NCBI RefSeq assembly: GCF_004216695.1
Contig: NZ_SGXC01000001.1
Span: forward strand, 930,001-994,000
Length of the DNA stretch: 64,000 nt
Origin: Pigmentiphaga kullae
GTDB lineage: Bacteria > Pseudomonadota > Gammaproteobacteria > Burkholderiales > Burkholderiaceae_B
Direction: 5' to 3'
In this document: piece by piece, positions 4,372-23,565 of the stretch
Position numbering within the stretch: position 1 is the stretch's first letter
How the letters are laid out: every line of letters begins with the position of its first letter
Program-made: the position numbers and the translations under genes
The notes under the pieces: model-generated
What the model was told of the DNA's origin: nothing
Seen by the model: only the letters and a program-made list of their open reading frames with translations
Databases searched by the model: none

Positions 4372-5313
4372 TCAGCTGTTTTCCAGCACGTCCGCCAGGC
4401 CCTGCTTTTCCAGCAGCGACGACAGGTGTTCCCAACCGTGGAAGTCGATGATGATCTGGCCGCGTTCCTTCGCGCCGATCTTGAAGGCTACCTGCGTGCC
4501 CAGCCGATCGGACAGCGCCTCTTCCAACCGCAGCACGTCGCGCGACTTGGCCGCGGGCCTGCGGCTGGATTTCTGCGCGGCTTCCTGCAGTGTCTGCGCG
4601 ACGAGCTTCTCGGCTTCGCGCACCGATAGCCGCTTGGCCACGATCTGCGTGGCGAGCTGGATCTGCGTGGCGGCATCCACCGCCAGCAGCGCGCGTGCGT
4701 GGCCCATGTCGAGATCGCCGGCCAGCAGCATGGTCTGCACCGGCGCGGCCAGGTTCAGCAGGCGCAGCAGGTTGCTCGTGGCCGAACGCGAGCGGCCGAT
4801 GGCCTGGGCCGCCTGCTCGTGCGTCATGCCGAATTCGCCGATCAATCGCTGCACGCCCTGTGCTTCTTCCAGCGGATTCAAGTCCTCGCGCTGGATGTTC
4901 TCGATCAGCGCCATGACCGCGGCGTTCTCGTCGCTGACCTCGCGCACCAGCACCGGCACCTCGGTCAGGCCGGCCAGCTGCGCGGCGCGAAAGCGCCGTT
5001 CGCCCGCGATGATCTCGTAGCGGCCGCCCTCGATCGCGCGAACCAGGATGGGTTGCATCACGCCCTGGGTGCGTATCGATTCGGCCAGTTCGCCCAGCGC
5101 GCCTTCGTCCATGCGCGAGCGCGGCTGGTAGCGGCCGGCCTGCATGCTGGCCACCGGCAGCGCGTTGGGCGGACCTTCCTTCGGTTCGGGCTGCGCCGTG
5201 GACTTGGTTCCCAGCGTGCTGACCGCCGGCATGTCGGCGCCCAGCAGCGCGTCCAGTCCGCGTCCGAGTCCTTTGGGTTTCTTCACACCCTTAGATCCTG
5301 CTTTCATTTCCAT
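4372..5313 (-). CDS. parB: Chromosome partitioning protein ParB
   Basis: Binds parS and spreads to form the partition complex that ParA moves. The 313-residue protein opens with the conserved KGLGRGLDALLG segment, then the CTPase/ParB box with GERRFRAAQLAGL, then a helix-turn-helix (HEQAAQAIGRSRSATSNLLRLL), and ends with the dimerisation domain. ATG at 5313 is chosen because GGGGAAG lies about seven bases upstream; the second ATG at 5307 is possible. The open frame continues upstream into parA, but that part is not ParB. parB follows parA by 17 bp, and matching parS sites lie upstream of mnmG. Confidence 0.97.
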   Translation of the reverse strand: MEMKAGSKGVKKPKGLGRGLDALLGADMPAVSTLGTKSTAQPEPKEGPPNALPVASMQAGRYQPRSRMDEGALGELAESIRTQGVMQPILVRAIEGGRYEIIAGERRFRAAQLAGLTEVPVLVREVSDENAAVMALIENIQREDLNPLEEAQGVQRLIGEFGMTHEQAAQAIGRSRSATSNLLRLLNLAAPVQTMLLAGDLDMGHARALLAVDAATQIQLATQIVAKRLSVREAEKLVAQTLQEAAQKSSRRPAAKSRDVLRLEEALSDRLGTQVAFKIGAKERGQIIIDFHGWEHLSSLLEKQGLADVLENS

Positions 5314-5330
5314 GATGTGCTTCCCCAAAG

Positions 5331-6200
5331 CTATAGCGTTTTCATACGCTCTATCATTTCCGCCCCGAAGGCCACGTAGGCCTGCGCCCCCTTGGACGCG
5401 GGGTCGAACACCACGCCCGGCAGGCCATAGCTGGGCGCCTCGGCCAGCCTGACGTTGCGCGGGATGATGCTCTTGAATACCTTGTCGCCGAAGTGGCTCT
5501 CGAGTTGCGCCGAGACCTGCTGCTGCAAGGTCACGCGCGGATCGAACATCACGCGCAAGAGCCCGATCACGCGCAGGTCGGGATTCAGGTTGGCGTGGAC
5601 CCGCTTGATGGTGTTGACCAGGTCCGACAGCCCTTCCAGCGCGAAGTACTCGCACTGCATCGGAATGATCACGCCATGCGCGGCGGCCAGGCCGTTGAGC
5701 GTCAGCAGCGACAAGGTGGGCGGGCAGTCGATCAGTACGAAGTCGTAGCGGTCGGCCACGGCGGCGATGGCATGCTTGAGCTGGCGCTCGCGTTCCTCGA
5801 GCTCCACCAGGTCGATCTCGGCGCCCGCCAGTTCGCGGTTGGAGGGCAGGACGTCATAGCCGCTCTCCGATGCCTTGGCGGCCTCGGCAATGCTGGCCTC
5901 GCCGATCAGCACCTGGTAGAGCGTGGCCTGCAGCTCGCGCTTGTCGATGCCGCTGCCCATGGTGGCGTTGCCCTGCGGATCGAGATCGACCAGCAGCACG
6001 CGCTGCTCCTGGGCCACGAGGGCCGCCGCCAGATTGACCGCGGTGGTGGTCTTGCCGACACCGCCCTTCTGGTTCGCGATGCAGAAGATGCGGGCGGTGC
6101 GCTTGGCGGCCAGCGGCTCGGCGCCGCTGATCGCCTCCAGCTCGCCGGCTTCTTCTCCGGACGGTGCCGCCTCGTTGACCATGCTGGAATTGGAAGACAT
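5331..6200 (-). CDS. parA: Chromosome partitioning ATPase ParA
   Basis: A Soj/ParA-type deviant Walker ATPase that segregates origin regions. The sequence shows KGGVGKTT in the P-loop (about residues 44-51), the switch DLDPQGNA, and the Walker-B-like DFVLIDCPP. ATG at 6200 gives 289 residues with an N-terminal tail of about 36 residues before the ATPase fold; the internal ATG at 6182 would shorten it by six. It lies between rsmG and parB in the classic mnmG-rsmG-parA-parB order, all transcribed in one direction. Confidence 0.97.
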   Translation of the reverse strand: MSSNSSMVNEAAPSGEEAGELEAISGAEPLAAKRTARIFCIANQKGGVGKTTTAVNLAAALVAQEQRVLLVDLDPQGNATMGSGIDKRELQATLYQVLIGEASIAEAAKASESGYDVLPSNRELAGAEIDLVELEERERQLKHAIAAVADRYDFVLIDCPPTLSLLTLNGLAAAHGVIIPMQCEYFALEGLSDLVNTIKRVHANLNPDLRVIGLLRVMFDPRVTLQQQVSAQLESHFGDKVFKSIIPRNVRLAEAPSYGLPGVVFDPASKGAQAYVAFGAEMIERMKTL

Positions 6201-6294
6201 CGAATACAACCTGATTATTGGGTGAATCTGACGCGCCGATGGCCGGCGCCGCGTTCTGCTAACCCTCGTTTGCCCCGCCCTCGACGCGGTCCAT

Positions 6295-6972
6295 TCAGAC
6301 CAGGCAGCGGCGGGCGGACAATCTTGGCACATAAAGCGTCGTGACGCCTTCCACCTGCCATGCCCCCTGGTCCTTCAACGCCTGCATCTCGTCTTCCGGC
6401 GGATGGCCCTTCATGGCGGCCAGCCGCCCCCCGGGCTTGACGTGGCGTCCGGCCAGCGCGGCAAAGTCGTGCAGCGACGCGAACGCGCGCGAGACGACGA
6501 TGTCGCACTCGGCGGGTTCGAGCTCCTCGACCCGCGCGTGCGTCGCCTCCAGGTTGGGCAGCCGCAGCACTCCCGCCACGTGCTTGATGAACGCGGTCTT
6601 CTTTTCCACCGCGTCCACGCAGCGCACCTGCCACTCCGGCCGGCAGATGGCCAGGACCACGCCGGGCAGCCCCCCGCCCGATCCCACGTCCAGGATGCTG
6701 GCGGGCTGGCCGGCAAGACGCTGGGCCAGTTCCGGCACCACCGACAAGCTGTCTGTTATGTGGTGCAAAAGCATCTGCTCAGGCTCGCGTATGGCCGTGA
6801 GGTTGTAGGTGCGGTTCCAGCGCAGCATCTGCGCCAGGTAATTCAGCAGCAGATCGATGCGCGCATGATCGAGCGGCAGGCGCAACACCGCGCAGTCCGA
6901 CTCGAGCTGGGCGGCGAATACCGCGCCATTGAAAGGTTCCTGCATCGGGATCGGTTTCCGGGACATGTTCAT
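6295..6972 (-). CDS. rsmG: 16S rRNA (guanine527-N7)-methyltransferase RsmG
   Basis: Methylates G527 of 16S rRNA with S-adenosylmethionine. The 225-residue protein carries the NLTAIREP motif and the SAM-binding DVGSGGGLPG motif, followed by the VSRAFASLHDF region typical of RsmG (GidB). I place the start at ATG 6972 because GGAGG lies eight bases upstream; ATG at 6966 and 6948 are in-frame alternatives. Frame remains open further upstream, but through hairpin-rich non-coding DNA. It is downstream of mnmG and upstream of parA. Confidence 0.95.
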   Translation of the reverse strand: MNMSRKPIPMQEPFNGAVFAAQLESDCAVLRLPLDHARIDLLLNYLAQMLRWNRTYNLTAIREPEQMLLHHITDSLSVVPELAQRLAGQPASILDVGSGGGLPGVVLAICRPEWQVRCVDAVEKKTAFIKHVAGVLRLPNLEATHARVEELEPAECDIVVSRAFASLHDFAALAGRHVKPGGRLAAMKGHPPEDEMQALKDQGAWQVEGVTTLYVPRLSARRCLV

Positions 6973-7008
6973 GGGACGGCCCTCCGGCGGCCGGGAGCTC
7001 CCCTTGCC

Positions 7009-7096
7009 GGGGAAGCGGGCGCGCTTCCCCGCATACCACGCATCGATACCGACGAGCCTCCTGTCTCGTCGTGGCGCGGCTTTTCTCCCAGGAGAA
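7009..7096. other. Hairpin-dense mnmG-rsmG intergenic segment
   Basis: The 157-bp gap between mnmG and rsmG contains three separate stem-loops: GGGGAAGCG/CGCTTCCCC (7009-7030, 4-base loop), GACGAG/CTCGTC (7051-7070) and TTCTCC/GGAGAA (7083-7096). None has a convincing T-tract on the minus strand, so they may tune mRNA processing or attenuation rather than end transcription. Function is unknown. Confidence 0.45.
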
Positions 7097-7129
7097 GGCG
7101 TGTGGTTGTCGAACGGCCGTGGGACACGC

Positions 7130-9070
7130 TCATGCCGCCCGGTTCGCATCGGCGGCGGAATCGGCATCCAGCCTTCCGTATTGCCGGCGCTTCAGGTGTA
7201 TCAGCAGGAGCGAGATGGCGGCAGGCGTGATGCCCGAGATACGGGCGGCCTGGCCGATGGTTTGCGGCCGATGGGTCTTGAGCTTCTGACGGACTTCGAA
7301 GGACAGGCTGCGCACCGAGTCGTAGTCGATGTCTTCGGGTATGCGCTGGTTCTCGTGCCCGGCCTGCTTGTCGATCTCGTTTTGCTGGCGCGCGATGTAA
7401 CCCGCGTACTTGACCTGGATCTCGACCTGTTCGGCAACGATCTGGTCGCTTACGCCCGGACCCGCCAGCAATTCTTCGTCCGCGTTCTTCGCTTGCATAA
7501 GAGCATCATAGGAAACGTTGGGGCGCTTGAGCAAGTCGAATAGTGTGTACTCACGCTCGATCGCCTTGCCCAATAGCGGCTCGGCGGCATGGGCCGGGAA
7601 AATCCGGGGATTGATCCACGTGGAACGCAGGCGCTCGACCTCGCTCGCCACGGCATCCCGCTTGCGGTTGAAGGCATCCCAGCGCGTGTCGTCCACCAGC
7701 CCGAGCTGGCGGCCGGTTTCCGTCAGGCGCCAGTCGGCATTGTCTTCGCGCAGGCTCAGGCGATACTCGGCCCGCGATGTGAACATGCGATAAGGCTCGG
7801 TCACGCCACGCGTGACCAGATCGTCGGCCAGCACACCCAGGTAAGCCTGGTCGCGACGCGGCACCCAGGCTTCCTCGCCCTTCACCTTCAGGGCGGCGTT
7901 GATGCCGGCCAGCAGTCCTTGCGCGGCGGCTTCTTCGTAGCCCGTCGTACCGTTGATCTGTCCGGCGAAGAACAGCCCAGAAATGGCACGGGTCTCCAGC
8001 GAGGTCTTCAGTCCACGTGGATCGAAATAGTCGTATTCGATGGCATAGCCCGGCCGCAGGATATGAGCGTTCTCCAGTCCGGGCAACGAATGGATCAGGT
8101 CGAGCTGCACATCGAAAGGCAGGCTGGTCGATACCCCGTTCGGGTAGAACTCGTGGGTGGTCAGACCTTCCGGTTCCAGGAAAACCTGATGGGATGTCTT
8201 GTCCGCGAAGCGGTGGATCTTGTCTTCGATGGACGGGCAATAACGCGGCCCCACCCCTTCGATGACCCCGGTGTACATGGGCGAGCGGTCCAGACCGCCA
8301 CGTATGATCTCGTGCGTCCGCGCATTCGTGTGCGTGATCCAGCACGGAAGCTGGCGCGGATGCATGGCGGCATCGCCCAGGTAGGAGAACACCGGTACCG
8401 GATCCAGGTCTCCGGGCTGTTCTTCCAGCACGCTGAAGTCGATGGATCGCCCGTCGATACGGGGCGGCGTACCGGTTTTCAGGCGGCCCTGGCCCAGCTT
8501 GAGTTCCTGCAGGCGCTTGCCCAGCGAGATGGCCGGCGGATCGCCCGCCCGGCCGGCCGAGTAGTTCTGCAGTCCCACGTGAACCAGTCCATTCAGGAAG
8601 GTACCGGCAGTCAACACCACCGCCCTCGCACGGAAACGAAGGCCGATCTGGGTGACCGCTCCTACGACCTTGTCCCCTTCCAGCATCAGGTCGTCCACCG
8701 CTTGCTGGAACAACCAGAGATTGGGCTGGTTCTCCAGGCGATGACGAATGGCCTTGCGGTAGAGCACTCGGTCGGCCTGGGCTCGGGTAGCCCGAACCGC
8801 CGGCCCTTTGGACGCATTCAGGATACGGAACTGGATCCCCGCTTCGTCGGTGGCCAGCGCCATCGCCCCACCCAGCGCATCGACTTCCTTTACCAGATGG
8901 CCCTTGCCTATTCCGCCTATGGAGGGATTGCAGGACATCTGCCCCAGGGTCTCGATGTTATGCGTGAGCAGCAGCGTCTTGCAGCCAGCGCGCGCGGCCG
9001 CCAATGCGGCCTCGGTACCGGCGTGGCCGCCGCCTACAACAATCACATCAAATTCGGTTGGATACAGCAT
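7130..9070 (-). CDS. mnmG: tRNA uridine-5-carboxymethylaminomethyl modification enzyme MnmG (GidA)
   Basis: With MnmE it installs the cmnm5 group on wobble uridine 34 of tRNAs, using FAD and methylene-tetrahydrofolate. The 646-residue length is normal. The N-terminal FAD dinucleotide fold [16 protein letters not shown] spans about residues 11-26, followed by the GidA signatures [12 protein letters not shown] and [20 protein letters not shown]. The helical C-terminal MnmE/tRNA-binding domain is complete. It heads the mnmG-rsmG-parA-parB block, and the region upstream of its start holds the parS sites. Confidence 0.98.
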
Positions 9071-9227: not shown

Positions 9228-9243
9228 TGTTTCACGTGGAACA
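9228..9243. promoter_or_regulatory. parS-like ParB site (one mismatch)
   Basis: TGTTTCACGTGGAACA differs from the universal parS sequence at one base (A to G at position 12) and sits within a near-palindrome 9226-9245. It is 158 bp upstream of the mnmG start and 116 bp from the perfect site. The rest of 9071-9343 shows no gene. Confidence 0.85.
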
Positions 9244-9343: not shown

Positions 9344-9359
9344 TGTTTCACGTGAAACA
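9344..9359. promoter_or_regulatory. parS centromere site (perfect)
   Basis: TGTTTCACGTGAAACA is an exact match to the conserved chromosomal parS sequence. It is the core of a perfect 26-bp palindrome at 9339-9364, because ATCGA/TCGAT extends it on both sides. ParB encoded at 4372-5313 should load here. parS sites cluster near oriC in most bacteria. Confidence 0.96.
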
Positions 9360-20185: not shown

Positions 20186-21628
20186 TCAGGACCTGGGGAA
20201 AACGAGGGCCGCGCGCAGGCCGGGCCCCGGTTCCCGGTTTTCCAGCACCAGCCTGCCCTTGTGCAGACCCGCGATCCGCTGCGCGATGGCCAGCCCCAGC
20301 CCGGCGCCCGGCTTGCCCTTGCCGGACTCGCCGCGGCGGAAACGCACGCCGGCCCGCTCGATGTCGGATACCGGCATGCCCGGTCCGCTGTCCTCCACCC
20401 GCAGCACGATCCGTCCGGGCTCGCGCAGCAGCATCAGCGTGACCATGCCTCCCTCCGGGCTGTAGCGAATGGCGTTGTCCAGCAGGTTGAGCACGGCCTC
20501 GCGCAGCAGCACGGGCAGCCCCGGCATCCACAACGCTTCCCCGAGCGCCTCGATGCCGTAATCCAGCTGCTTGGCGCGTGCGGCCGGCAGCAGGCTGCGC
20601 ACGCATTCCCCAGCCAGTTCGGCCAGGTCGATCCGCACGAAAGGCAGGCCACCCTCGGCCAGCGAGGCATCATGGACACGGGCCAGCGCCAGCATCTGGT
20701 TGGCCATCCGTATGGACCGGTCCACGCCGGCATGCATGGCCTGCAAGACCTGGCGGACCGCTTGCGGGTCGGTCTCGCGCAGCGCGAAATCCACCTGGGT
20801 CTTGAGCACGGTCAGCGGCGTGCGCAACTGGTGGGACGCATCGTCCAGGAACTGGCGCTGCGCGCGGGCCTGGGCGTCGTGCCGCGCGATGTGCCGATTG
20901 ATGGCGGACACCAGCGGCTGGACCTCGGCCGGGACCTGGCTGTCGTCCACCGGCCGCAGGTCGTCCGGGTCGCGCGCGTCGATTTCCTCGCTCAGGCGCA
21001 CCAGCGGCCGCAGCGCGATGATCACCCCACCCGTCAGCAGGATCGCGCTCAGCAGGATCTGCAGCGTATCTCGCTCGATCGCGCGCATCAGCACGGCCCG
21101 GGTGAAGCCCGCCCGCGACTCGATGCTTTCCGCGACCTGGATGACCACCCGCTGGCGTTCCTGCGCGCCATACAGGGGAGGATCGAGCCGGCGCGCCAGC
21201 ACGCCCACACGGACCGGTTCGCCGAAATACTCGGCGTCGAAGAATTCCGCCCGTCCCGACACCAGCGGATGCGCCGGCATGGGCAGCGCCGGGTTGCCGA
21301 TCTCGGTCAGGTTGTCTTCGGTGGAGACCCGGAAATACACGTTGCCGCTGGCGGTCAGTTCGAAAAATTGCAGCAGCCTGTAGGGCAGTTCCACCGCCAA
21401 CCCACCGCTTTCCGTCGATATGTTCAGGTCTATGGCGCGCAGGGCGCCTGCCAGCGACCGGTCGTAGGCTGCATTGGTCAGGTCGTCCAGCAGCCTGACC
21501 GACAGCCACAGGCCACCCCCGGCTACCACGGCCAGGACCGGAAGCAGCCACCACAGCAGGGTCGTTTTCAGGCTGCGCCGCCGTGGCCGGGCCGGCAAGG
21601 GAGAAGTTGCTGGCGAGGAAGCCGTCAC
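20186..21628 (-). CDS. tctE: Sensor histidine kinase TctE
   Basis: A 480-residue membrane kinase that senses extracellular tricarboxylate, probably via liganded TctC. An N-terminal helix (about 20-45), a periplasmic 2CSK_N-type domain, a second helix (about 185-205), the phospho-acceptor motif DDASHQLRTPL with His near 266, and a complete ATP-binding domain (N box LLDNAIRYSP, G boxes DSGPGMP and GAGLGLAIAQ) are all visible. Its ATG overlaps the tctD stop by four bases. The 122-bp gap before tctC may carry a separate promoter. Confidence 0.95.
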   Translation of the reverse strand: MTASSPATSPLPARPRRRSLKTTLLWWLLPVLAVVAGGGLWLSVRLLDDLTNAAYDRSLAGALRAIDLNISTESGGLAVELPYRLLQFFELTASGNVYFRVSTEDNLTEIGNPALPMPAHPLVSGRAEFFDAEYFGEPVRVGVLARRLDPPLYGAQERQRVVIQVAESIESRAGFTRAVLMRAIERDTLQILLSAILLTGGVIIALRPLVRLSEEIDARDPDDLRPVDDSQVPAEVQPLVSAINRHIARHDAQARAQRQFLDDASHQLRTPLTVLKTQVDFALRETDPQAVRQVLQAMHAGVDRSIRMANQMLALARVHDASLAEGGLPFVRIDLAELAGECVRSLLPAARAKQLDYGIEALGEALWMPGLPVLLREAVLNLLDNAIRYSPEGGMVTLMLLREPGRIVLRVEDSGPGMPVSDIERAGVRFRRGESGKGKPGAGLGLAIAQRIAGLHKGRLVLENREPGPGLRAALVFPRS

Positions 21629-22293
21629 GCAGGCTCCAGGCTGTATCCCAGTCCGCGCAGGGTCACGATATGGACGCCGGTGTCGCCCAGGCGCTTGCGC
21701 AGCCGGTGGACGATGACTTCGATGGCGTCCAGCCCGACGTCGCGGTCGTCGTCGAATACCCGATCCAGGATCTGCTGCTTGGTCATGGGTTCGCCGCTGC
21801 GCTGGATCAGGGCCCGCAATACCGAGTGTTCCCGTGGCGAGAGGGCCAGGGGTTGGTTGTCGAGCAGGAATTTCTGAGCGGCCAGGTCGAAAACCAGCGG
21901 CCCGCAGGCCAGACGCGGATGTTCCCTGCCCCGGCTGCGCCGTATCAGCGCCGCCAGTCTGGCTTCCAGTTCGGTCACGTTGAAGGGCTTGGGCAGGAAA
22001 TCGTCTGCGCCTTCGTGCAGGGTGGTGACGCGTTCCGTCAGTGAATCACGTGCGGTCAATATCAAGACGGGCGTACGGTCATCACGGGCGCGCAGTCTGG
22101 CCAGCAGCGTCCGCCCGTCCAGTCCGGGCAGTCCCAGATCCAGGACGACGGCATCGAAATCCTCGACCTGCAGGCGTTTTTCCGCGACTACGCCATCGTC
22201 GGCCCATTCCACGACGAAACCGGCGTGCCGGGCCAGCGTGCCTGACAGCCATCGAGCCAATTCGGGTTCGTCCTCGACCAACAGGATACGCAT
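21625..22293 (-). CDS. tctD: OmpR-family response regulator TctD
   Basis: A 222-residue regulator: receiver domain with phosphorylatable Asp near 52 (VLDLGLPG) and conserved Lys in LPKPF, then an OmpR/PhoB winged helix with VIVHRLRKRLG. It is first in the tctD-E-C-B-A operon and should switch on tctCBA when the substrate is present. A TATAAG hexamer at 22318-22323 on the minus strand is a possible -10 element just upstream. It borders the DnaA-box region. Confidence 0.95.
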   Translation of the reverse strand: MRILLVEDEPELARWLSGTLARHAGFVVEWADDGVVAEKRLQVEDFDAVVLDLGLPGLDGRTLLARLRARDDRTPVLILTARDSLTERVTTLHEGADDFLPKPFNVTELEARLAALIRRSRGREHPRLACGPLVFDLAAQKFLLDNQPLALSPREHSVLRALIQRSGEPMTKQQILDRVFDDDRDVGLDAIEVIVHRLRKRLGDTGVHIVTLRGLGYSLEPA

Positions 22294-22439
22294 GGCGGAT
22301 CGGGTGCTCCGTACTTACTTATAGAGGAATGAGACGCCTGGATGCTAGGTGTTCGATCCGGCCGGGTCAACCGGCGTCCGCGCAGCGGCGCCCAGGGCCG
22401 CTTGCGGCCCTCGTAGCGGTAGGAAGAAAAGATGTTTGA

Positions 22440-22680
22440 GCTTTATCCTAAAACTATCTATCCAATTCGTAGTAGGTAATAGGAGCCTGTGGATAACTTC
22501 GCCCGATCAAAAAAACCTTTTCGATTCAAAGAGTTGCCTAATTTTTAGGCATGTGGATAAGCTTGTCCACAGGGTGTACCCGGAAATTGAACAACTTTTT
22601 GGGTTGGGAACGAAAACAAAGTTATCCACAAAGGCTCAACACCGTATGCACACCCCGCTTCCCAGAGCTTATCCACAGGC
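22440..22680. other. Candidate replication origin (oriC): DnaA-box cluster in AT-rich DNA
   Basis: Perfect DnaA boxes (TTATCCACA or its complement) are at 22488-22496, 22552-22560, 22622-22630 and 22669-22677. TTGTCCACA, one base off, is at 22563-22571 and faces the box beside it. The surrounding 240 bp is far richer in A and T than the rest of the window; 22507-22548 (with A7 and T5 runs) could be the unwinding element. It occupies most of the 435-bp gap 22294-22728. dnaA, dnaN and gyrB are not nearby, but parS, parAB and mnmG are within 18 kb. Confidence 0.82.
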
Positions 22681-22728
22681 CTGAAAATGTCCGCATCGGG
22701 TATTCTGGTCGCCTGCCTGGAGCCGTTC

Positions 22729-23565
22729 ATGGATGTATCCGCCTCTTTCTCCGCCCTGGCCGCGTTCGTGGGCCGGTACGAACGCCTGTTCGTCCTGACC
22801 GGCGCCGGGTGCAGCACGGATTCGGGCATCCCGGACTATCGCGACGCCGATGGCCAGTGGAAACGTACGCCGCCCATCGACTTTCAGTTATTCATGGGCG
22901 ACGGCCTGGCCCGGGCGCGCTACTGGGCGCGCAGCATGATCGGGTGGCGGCGCTTCGGGAAGGCCGGGCCCAACGACACCCATCGCGCGCTGGCACAGCT
23001 GGAGGCCAGCGGAAGAATGCGGATGCTGGTGACCCAGAACGTCGATGGCCTGCATCAGGCGGCGGGCAGCCGCGCAGTGGTGGATCTGCATGGCCGGCTG
23101 GACGAGGTCCGTTGCATGCATTGCGCGCACCGCGAACCGCGGGCCGTATTCCAGCAGCGGCTGCAAGCCGTGAACCCGGCATGGATCGCGCTGGACGCGG
23201 CCGATGCACCCGATGGCGACGCCGACCTGGAAGCGGTGGATTTCTCCCGTTTCGCCGTGCCGTCCTGTCCTGCCTGCGGCGGGATCCTGAAGCCGGACGT
23301 CGTTTTCTTCGGCGAACAGGTGCCCGCGCCGCGCGTGGCGACGGTGCTGCGCGCGCTGGACGAAGCCGATGCCATCCTGGTGGTGGGCTCGTCGCTGATG
23401 GTGCATTCTGGCTACCGCTATGTACGCGCCGGTGCATCGGCCGGACTGCCGGTCGCGGCGGTCAACCTGGGGCGCACGCGCGCCGACGACCTGCTTACCC
23501 TGAAGGTGGAGCAGTCCTGTGCCGAGGCGCTGGCCTTCATGCTGGAGGACCGCGCGGCGGCGTAA
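22729..23565 (+). CDS. NAD-dependent protein deacylase, sirtuin (CobB/Sir2) family
   Basis: A 278-residue sirtuin that removes acyl groups from lysines with NAD consumption. NAD-binding GAGCSTDSGIPDYR (about 25-38), TQNVDGLH (about 102-109), the catalytic His in VDLHGR (about 121) and a four-Cys zinc site (CMHC at 129-132, CPAC at 180-183) are intact; the class II form. ATG at 22729 is favoured because CTGGAG lies just upstream; an in-frame ATG at 22687 would add 14 residues. It converges with the following LysR gene. Confidence 0.94.
   Translation: MDVSASFSALAAFVGRYERLFVLTGAGCSTDSGIPDYRDADGQWKRTPPIDFQLFMGDGLARARYWARSMIGWRRFGKAGPNDTHRALAQLEASGRMRMLVTQNVDGLHQAAGSRAVVDLHGRLDEVRCMHCAHREPRAVFQQRLQAVNPAWIALDAADAPDGDADLEAVDFSRFAVPSCPACGGILKPDVVFFGEQVPAPRVATVLRALDEADAILVVGSSLMVHSGYRYVRAGASAGLPVAAVNLGRTRADDLLTLKVEQSCAEALAFMLEDRAAA

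Follow-up and report, generated by a model that had tools for sequence, protein, structure and literature searches.

Genes and Sequence Features at the Locus

The DNA analysed, in the following termed the window, comprises 64,000 nucleotides of the Pigmentiphaga kullae genome, corresponding to bases 930001–994000 of contig 1 (C1; the genome is labelled G000). It carries an mnmG-rsmG-parA-parB cluster with two parS sites on the left and, further to the right, a group of DnaA boxes between a response-regulator gene and a Sir2-family gene (Table 1). PEPCK and a TctC receptor are also encoded in the window, as judged by Pfam. In a preceding reading of the sequence alone, the box cluster had been proposed to represent a chromosomal oriC not adjacent to dnaA, lying between tct-type genes and a sirtuin gene in the vicinity of parAB and parS. 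This setting is confirmed by the Pfam assignments, which put the cluster between the Sir2 gene and the genes of the response regulator and TctC, and by the par genes and sites found. Likewise, dnaA is indeed absent from the window, as had been stated. The sole DnaA match in the genome is located at C1:1011283, with the gene start 58.1 kb to the right of the cluster on the same contig and dnaN following (Pfam). At that locus, one perfect DnaA box is present upstream of dnaA and one box with a single mismatch in the dnaA-dnaN spacer, while rpmH was recognized there by eye. The Sir2 gene might start at an ATG near position 22729 instead of 22687 (window 22687–22731), because the alignment to two relatives (L086 and L087) does not begin until residue 15.

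Table 1. Features of the candidate origin and its surroundings, in window coordinates.
Feature	Position	Strand	Basis
mnmG, rsmG, parA, parB cluster	4372..9070	-	Pfam; mnmG positions in 20 genomes
parS site	9228..9243	.	motif search
parS site	9344..9359	.	motif search
Response-regulator gene, flanking	21625..22293	-	Pfam
Candidate oriC unit as modelled, from putative unwinding element to right outer DnaA box	22433..22685	+	unit-model match, alignment A1
Putative unwinding element, AT-rich, with DnaA-trio-like triplets TAG TAG g TAA TAG GAG beside the first box	22436..22487	+	stability calculation, A1 consensus, triplets by eye
DnaA box R1, perfect	22488..22496	-	motif search; aligns with R1 of E. 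coli K-12
IHF-like site ATTCAAAGAGTTG, one mismatch versus WATCAANNNNTTR, +36 from R1	22524..22536	+	motif search
Inner DnaA box, perfect	22552..22560	-	motif search
Inner DnaA box, one mismatch	22563..22571	+	motif search
Inner DnaA box, perfect	22622..22630	+	motif search
Right outer DnaA box R4, perfect, 181 bp from R1	22669..22677	+	motif search, pair-spacing analysis
Sir2-family gene, flanking	22687..23565	+	Pfam SIR2

Box Cluster and Adjoining AT-Rich Element

The four perfect boxes and the single-mismatch box reported by the sequence-only reading were all recovered, spanning exactly 190 bp, and the boxes at 22552 and 22563 do face each other as an inverted pair, 2 bp separating their TTA ends. 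These five are the sole matches to TTATCCACA with at most one mismatch in the whole 64-kb window. Their number is ordinary when compared with shuffled sequences (mean 3.1, with 19 of 100 shuffles reaching five), hence it is the clustering that is unusual. Matches to TTWTNCACA are in excess, with five in the window versus a shuffle mean of 0.64 and none of 100 shuffles reaching that value. In the complete genome (6.22 Mb, five contigs), only 11 perfect DnaA boxes occur, four of which belong to the cluster, and under uniform placement the expected number of clusters of this kind is roughly 4e-11. Genome-wide, perfect boxes are rarer than the reversed control word (11 versus 19), as if stray strong boxes were avoided.

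With an AT fraction of 0.56 in the unit and 0.65 in its left 60 bp versus 0.32 in the whole window, the cluster lies in an AT-rich stretch of otherwise GC-rich DNA, as had been described. The unwinding segment was initially suspected between the first two boxes, where runs of A7 and T5 are found. These runs do exist, and the stretch contains the IHF-like site, but the least stable part lies to the left of box 1, where the 40-bp window starting at 22441 is the second least stable of the 64 kb by calculated stability. Judged by this minimum, the AT-rich unwinding element most likely sits left of R1, as in E. coli, whereas a location between boxes 1 and 2 is rejected on the basis of the stability calculation together with the family alignment. 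A DnaA-box cluster and an adjoining AT-rich element of low calculated stability, both characteristic of an oriC, are consequently found side by side. The triplets TAA TAG GAG at a distance of 2 bp from R1 are compatible with the DnaA-trio search rule of at least three NAN triplets beside a DnaA box at a spacer of up to 16 bp (PMC8287927), although the triplets were read by eye and the usual spacer given there is 10–13 bp. Across 22 units of the family, the best IHF match is placed at an offset of 35–36 bp from R1 in 21 and is perfect in eight. As an equally good match appears in 168 of 2,000 shuffles of the window unit, the evidence for the site is the fixed offset. Only one GATC, at 22505, was seen by eye within 22433–22685, in contrast to the many such sites associated with Dam/SeqA control.

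Replichore Switch

As a test of the proposed origin, it had been suggested to look for a GC-skew minimum at about 22.5 kb, as opposed to one next to dnaA. Computed over a contiguous 470 kb (C1:750001–1220000), the cumulative GC skew indeed reaches its minimum at C1:951554 (window 21554), 0.9 kb from the cluster; keto skew is lowest at 951558, and 951501 is the best position for a change of slope. By block bootstrap, the minimum has a 95% range extending from about -14 to about +17 kb, which excludes the dnaA-dnaN spacer some 60 kb further right. In the stretches of the genome that had been sampled first, skew is negative in eight of nine on the left (+0.002 in the ninth) and positive in all 11 on the right. 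On the other hand, GC skew reaches almost the same depth again at 989911 (-3629 versus -3749), T-A skew has its minimum 46 kb to the left of the GC minimum, at 905116, and weakly negative values occur in the three 8-kb pieces at the right end of the window (970–994 kb).

The same coincidence is observed in two relatives with one-contig genomes, taken as circular. In G007, the minimum at 5885363 is 0.9 kb from the homologous cluster (5886295) and about 108 kb from dnaA, with a bootstrap range of -34 to +20 kb; in G018, the respective positions are 151557 and 156038, hence 4.5 kb apart, with dnaA about 152 kb from the minimum and a range of -16 to +8 kb. In the latter genome, GC skew falls almost as low again at 128908, and the keto minimum, at 126129, is 30 kb away from the cluster. 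The skew between cluster and dnaA has the sign predicted for a start at the cluster, with an interval clear of zero in G007 and G018, while in G000 the slope between the two loci amounts to 9.9 with an interval of -1.8 to 19.4 that includes zero. The replichore switch is thus placed by the skew minima at or near the cluster in all three genomes (over 470 kb in the case of G000), and the neighborhood of dnaA is rejected as main origin because the skew minimum lies elsewhere. KOPS-like words (GGGNAGGG) were discarded as an additional strand marker, since a 20-kb stretch contains too few of them and they are mixed close to the origin. In another genome, G120 (L258–L277), hundreds of kb separate unit and dnaA, and neither is surrounded by coherent skew; this chromosome has perhaps been rearranged recently.

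A Conserved Unit in the Family

The family considered here is the family f1 of the search tool, which includes Bordetella sp. LUAb4 and Achromobacter sp. HZ34, as judged from coordinates and scores that agree exactly, and Advenella sp. S44, as judged from the score. Within the genus, G002, G004, and G008 agree in contig coordinates and scores with Pigmentiphaga sp. NML030171 (L086), P. humi (L089), and Pigmentiphaga sp. NML080357 (L087), respectively. NCBI places Pigmentiphaga in the Alcaligenaceae, the family to which Kerstersia gyiorum also belongs. In a set of 20 genomes contributing 21 loci, box pairs in (-,+) orientation are most often 178–182 bp apart (16 pairs versus a mean of 0.61 per 5-bp bin), while the highest counts per bin in the other orientations are 3, 6, and 6, both sixes at short spacings of about 20–36 bp. 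The outer boxes of the window unit correspond to this arrangement. Alignment of 23 units from 14 genomes and eight genera (A1) gives a majority consensus in which TAATnGG adjoins R1 on the left and TGTGCACA precedes R4; it also includes a TGnACAAC motif.

A sequence-only model built from these 23 units and applied at a threshold of E ≤ 0.001 yields 149.8 bits at C1:952437–952683, the window unit itself being one of the model members, and finds matches in 176 of 200 family genomes, leaving 24 without. Plain DNA similarity to the window unit detects 12 of 61 genomes, 11 of them of the same genus. Among the matches listed, 106 family genomes have one, 64 two, and six three (70 with two or three), although a second match is not always a copy, as G014 shows an overlapping partial match on the other strand with the stand-alone profile. 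Eleven of 20 listed misses are genomes of at most 2.5 Mb, and six are from a single genus (g59). At the mnmG side of 16 family genomes, two whole or nearly whole units are found upstream of mnmG in nine (G001, G006, G010, G011, G012, G015, G018, G019, and G028; loci L140, L141, L143, L144, L145, L147, L149, L150, and L153), one in five, and none in two. Tandem units are spaced by 643 bp in G001, 358 bp in G018, and, in genus g2, 1344–1347 bp in eight genomes and 478 bp in G077. The gap between them holds an open frame of at least 217 aa in four of nine cases and a shorter one in five. Bordetella sp. LUAb4 (G230) has two units (C14:2451 and 3231), as has Achromobacter sp. HZ34 (C15:10896 and 11696), while Advenella sp. 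S44 has one.

As the end of R4 and the earliest potential start codon of Sir2 are 9 bp apart, the boxes might be taken for a promoter element of the Sir2 gene, or of the response-regulator gene, or else for a chance assembly. With the Sir2 protein as query, five named origin loci were recovered (L084–L087 and L089), but the other Sir2 loci obtained in this way are without a unit. In particular, no unit was found within the DNA examined at the Sir2 loci of Achromobacter, Advenella, and Bordetella, whose units are placed elsewhere in the genome. Units with the 180-bp geometry in other genera as well as the skew argue against this explanation, too, and its probability is practically negligible.

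The Window Unit as Probable Main Chromosomal Origin

The closest parallel is the oriC of E. coli K-12, located between mnmG and mioC. There, the outer inverted perfect boxes R1 and R4 are 180 bp apart, compared with 181 bp here, an IHF site lies between R1 and the inner boxes, in the window unit at sequence level only, the least stable stretch is left of R1, and mnmG is on the same side and strand. The two origins differ in the offsets of their boxes (0, 64, 75, 134, and 181 in the window unit versus 0, 55, 106, 141, and 180 in K-12, the one at 55 with two mismatches), in the offset of the IHF site from R1 (36 versus 27), in the distance to mnmG (13 kb versus about 0.1 kb), and in the trio-like triplets beside R1 of the window unit. 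Because of the deviating inner box positions, the unit resembles the enterobacterial type without being a member of it in this respect. The family profile places the R1-IHF half of the E. coli origin correctly, albeit weakly (E 0.067; 0.003 in a smaller set).

Based on the skew minimum, the homology within the family and the E. coli-type geometry of the outer boxes, the proposal of an oriC away from dnaA is supported, and window 22433–22685 very probably represents the main chromosomal replication origin of this Pigmentiphaga genome, to which we assign a probability of about 0.92. By analogy with E. coli and B. subtilis, DnaA would bind the strong outer boxes R1 and R4 as well as the inner boxes, IHF would bend the DNA between R1 and the latter, and ATP-DnaA would unwind the AT-rich, trio-bearing stretch left of R1, where the helicase would then be loaded. 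The newly formed origins might be segregated by ParB bound to parS 13 kb away.

Origins distant from dnaA have already been reported in relatives. On chromosome 1 of Cupriavidus metallidurans CH34, the skew transition is about 90 kb from dnaA-dnaN-gyrB, beside a 213-nt stretch with three perfect DnaA boxes; in contrast to the present case, neither an R1-R4 geometry nor a second unit in the dnaA-dnaN spacer is described in the relevant portion of that account (PMC2864759). For Bordetella pertussis, gidA/mnmG has been named the first gene after the origin (PMC6321869), and its inversions deviate unidirectionally from symmetry around dnaA (PMC9584773). The relevant portions of both accounts are without sequence anatomy, whereas two tandem units can be given for Bordetella sp. 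LUAb4. The oriC of Kerstersia gyiorum, a 933-bp stretch, is an Ori-Finder prediction for which the pertinent text gives no anatomy (PMC6461280), and this paper is the only one found when searching open-licence PMC literature for the oriC of Pigmentiphaga. In B. cenocepacia, the exact origin is described as uncertain (PMC4948915), while for E. coli it has been remarked that oriC and dnaA were apparently parted by a major rearrangement (PMC8287927).

Origins are often assigned to dnaA by default, and estimates of copy number and growth rate depend on this placement. Here and in the closed genomes of the family looked at, the default would be wrong by roughly at least 20 kb.

A Second Unit in the dnaA-dnaN Spacer

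A second match of the unit model in G000, scoring 70 bits, is found at C1:1012329–1012518 on the minus strand (L010:12333–12514), about 60 kb from the first. It sits in the dnaA-dnaN spacer with its unwinding side towards dnaN. Such a match of 63–77 bits was obtained in 8 of 11 genomes of the genus searched (G000, G002–G005, and G007–G009), and it is flanked by DnaA and DnaN in the seven that were placed (all except G009). In G001 and G006, the spacer holds half a unit and two tandem units are present elsewhere, while for G010, also with two units, none was found in the spacer by profile and model search. No perfect boxes occur in the seven Pigmentiphaga spacers examined, which have an R1-like box with one or two mismatches and in which the match ends before the place of R4.

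Nevertheless, conservation of the spacer exceeds that of the main unit (98.8 versus 87.7% between G000 and G007; higher in all seven pairs compared) and also that of fourfold sites of dnaA and dnaN, the latter with p < 0.05 in five of six species pairs (p = 0.17 for G004), although all six pairs share G000 and fourfold sites of such genes may themselves be biased. Because of this, a decaying fossil as sole account of the spacer unit was dropped. The dnaN side stands out, with 87 of 100 columns invariant versus 85 of 147, so that the dnaN promoter may account for part of the conservation. Hence, the unit might be conserved only as promoter or leader of dnaN, its likeness to oriC being the remnant of an old origin. 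In line with this, G001 and G006 have retained just the dnaN-side half. However, the conserved part comprises trio-like triplets, a box and an IHF match (61 of 72 columns invariant), which is unexpected for a promoter. We consider this explanation a serious candidate, with a chance somewhat below even. It leaves the assignment of the main origin to the window unit untouched.

An order-wide search matched 77 of 200 genomes, seven of these in the family of the window, and left 123 unmatched. In 36 of the other 70 matching genomes, which are the best-scoring and not a random sample, dnaA was located. The match lies 519–818 bp after the DnaA domain on the opposite strand in 23 and elsewhere in 13. 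G312 has two matches, of which the one in the spacer scores lower and the stronger lies across dnaA at a distance of a few kb. By family, a spacer unit is present in 15 of the 19 outgroup families examined, with f31 showing both states. Inspection of 20 of these 23 outgroup loci revealed DnaA on one side and DnaN on the other in all cases, and the stand-alone profile recovered 18 of the 20 units in the expected orientation (G364 is partial and on the other strand, G349 was not recovered). Among the matches listed, none of the 18 one-contig genomes of the window's family has a unit directly after dnaA.

The prevalence of the spacer unit in the outgroup genomes examined, together with its conservation beyond most fourfold-site comparisons, could suggest that the true origin of Pigmentiphaga is located there as well and that the cluster at 22.5 kb is a site for titrating or resetting DnaA of the datA/DARS kind. 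This is very improbable, as the skew minima of G000 and G007 are at the cluster, with the spacer units about 60 and 108 kb away and outside the bootstrap ranges, and as the Pigmentiphaga spacers examined are devoid of perfect boxes and score about 70 bits in G000, compared with 150 for the cluster. Alternatively, both units might fire, in different cells or under different conditions, resulting in two starts about 60–108 kb apart. Skew between the units is in fact lower than to the right of both (9.9 versus 17.6 per kb in G000 and 10.1 versus 19.8 in G007), and in G018, where no spacer unit was found, the stretch from dnaA to the cluster is close to its arm (-16.5 versus -19.8). Moreover, in the spacers inspected the unit retains trio-like triplets, an R1-like box and a good IHF match. 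However, the bootstrap ranges of the slopes overlap in G000 and G007, placing this hint within the noise, and all spacer-unit boxes have at least one mismatch in a match that ends before the R4 position. A dual start therefore appears unlikely, though less so than a main origin in the spacer. With the window unit as main origin, our guess is that the spacer unit now serves to control dnaA and dnaN or provides a minor origin rather than the main start.

Two Proposed Sites for Homologous Units

From the counts above, we infer two alternative sites for homologous units, with one genus carrying both. Compared with dnaA-distant origins as such, these paired sites are the less expected part, and no description of paired origin units was found in the available text of open-licence PMC papers. 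In the bipartite origins of B. subtilis and H. pylori, a spacer gene, in most cases dnaA, lies between two DnaA-box regions, one of them with the unwinding element, all within about 2 kb (PMC4285127). The Pigmentiphaga pair, in contrast, consists of two homologous units, each with a trio-like side, that are about 60 kb (G000) or 108 kb (G007) apart and accordingly do not flank a single gene within 2 kb.

The mnmG-side unit as a recent copy of the spacer unit is unsupported, since the former shares its 180-bp geometry with E. coli while none was seen in spacer units. Possible, though rather doubtful, is that the ancestor of the Burkholderiales, perhaps already that of beta- and gammaproteobacteria, had two homologous units, one of E. 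coli type with the 180-bp geometry on the mnmG side and one in the dnaA-dnaN spacer, and that lineages came to differ in their main start, with the window's family using the mnmG-side unit, often in tandem, and the 15 outgroup families having the spacer unit. Pigmentiphaga would then have kept both, the strong one firing and the weak one being under selection as a regulatory or secondary start. If this were true, the genus would be a living intermediate of an origin switch. With one genus having both sites, neighbors having either and several having tandem units, origin movement would become testable in non-model bacteria.

Besides the dnaA-dnaN match, the outgroup genome G279 shows a second, weak match at C1:1904092–1904240, at the end of a contig of 1,904,269 bases. 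If this contig were circular, the match would be placed just before dnaA, possibly forming a pair that flanks the gene.
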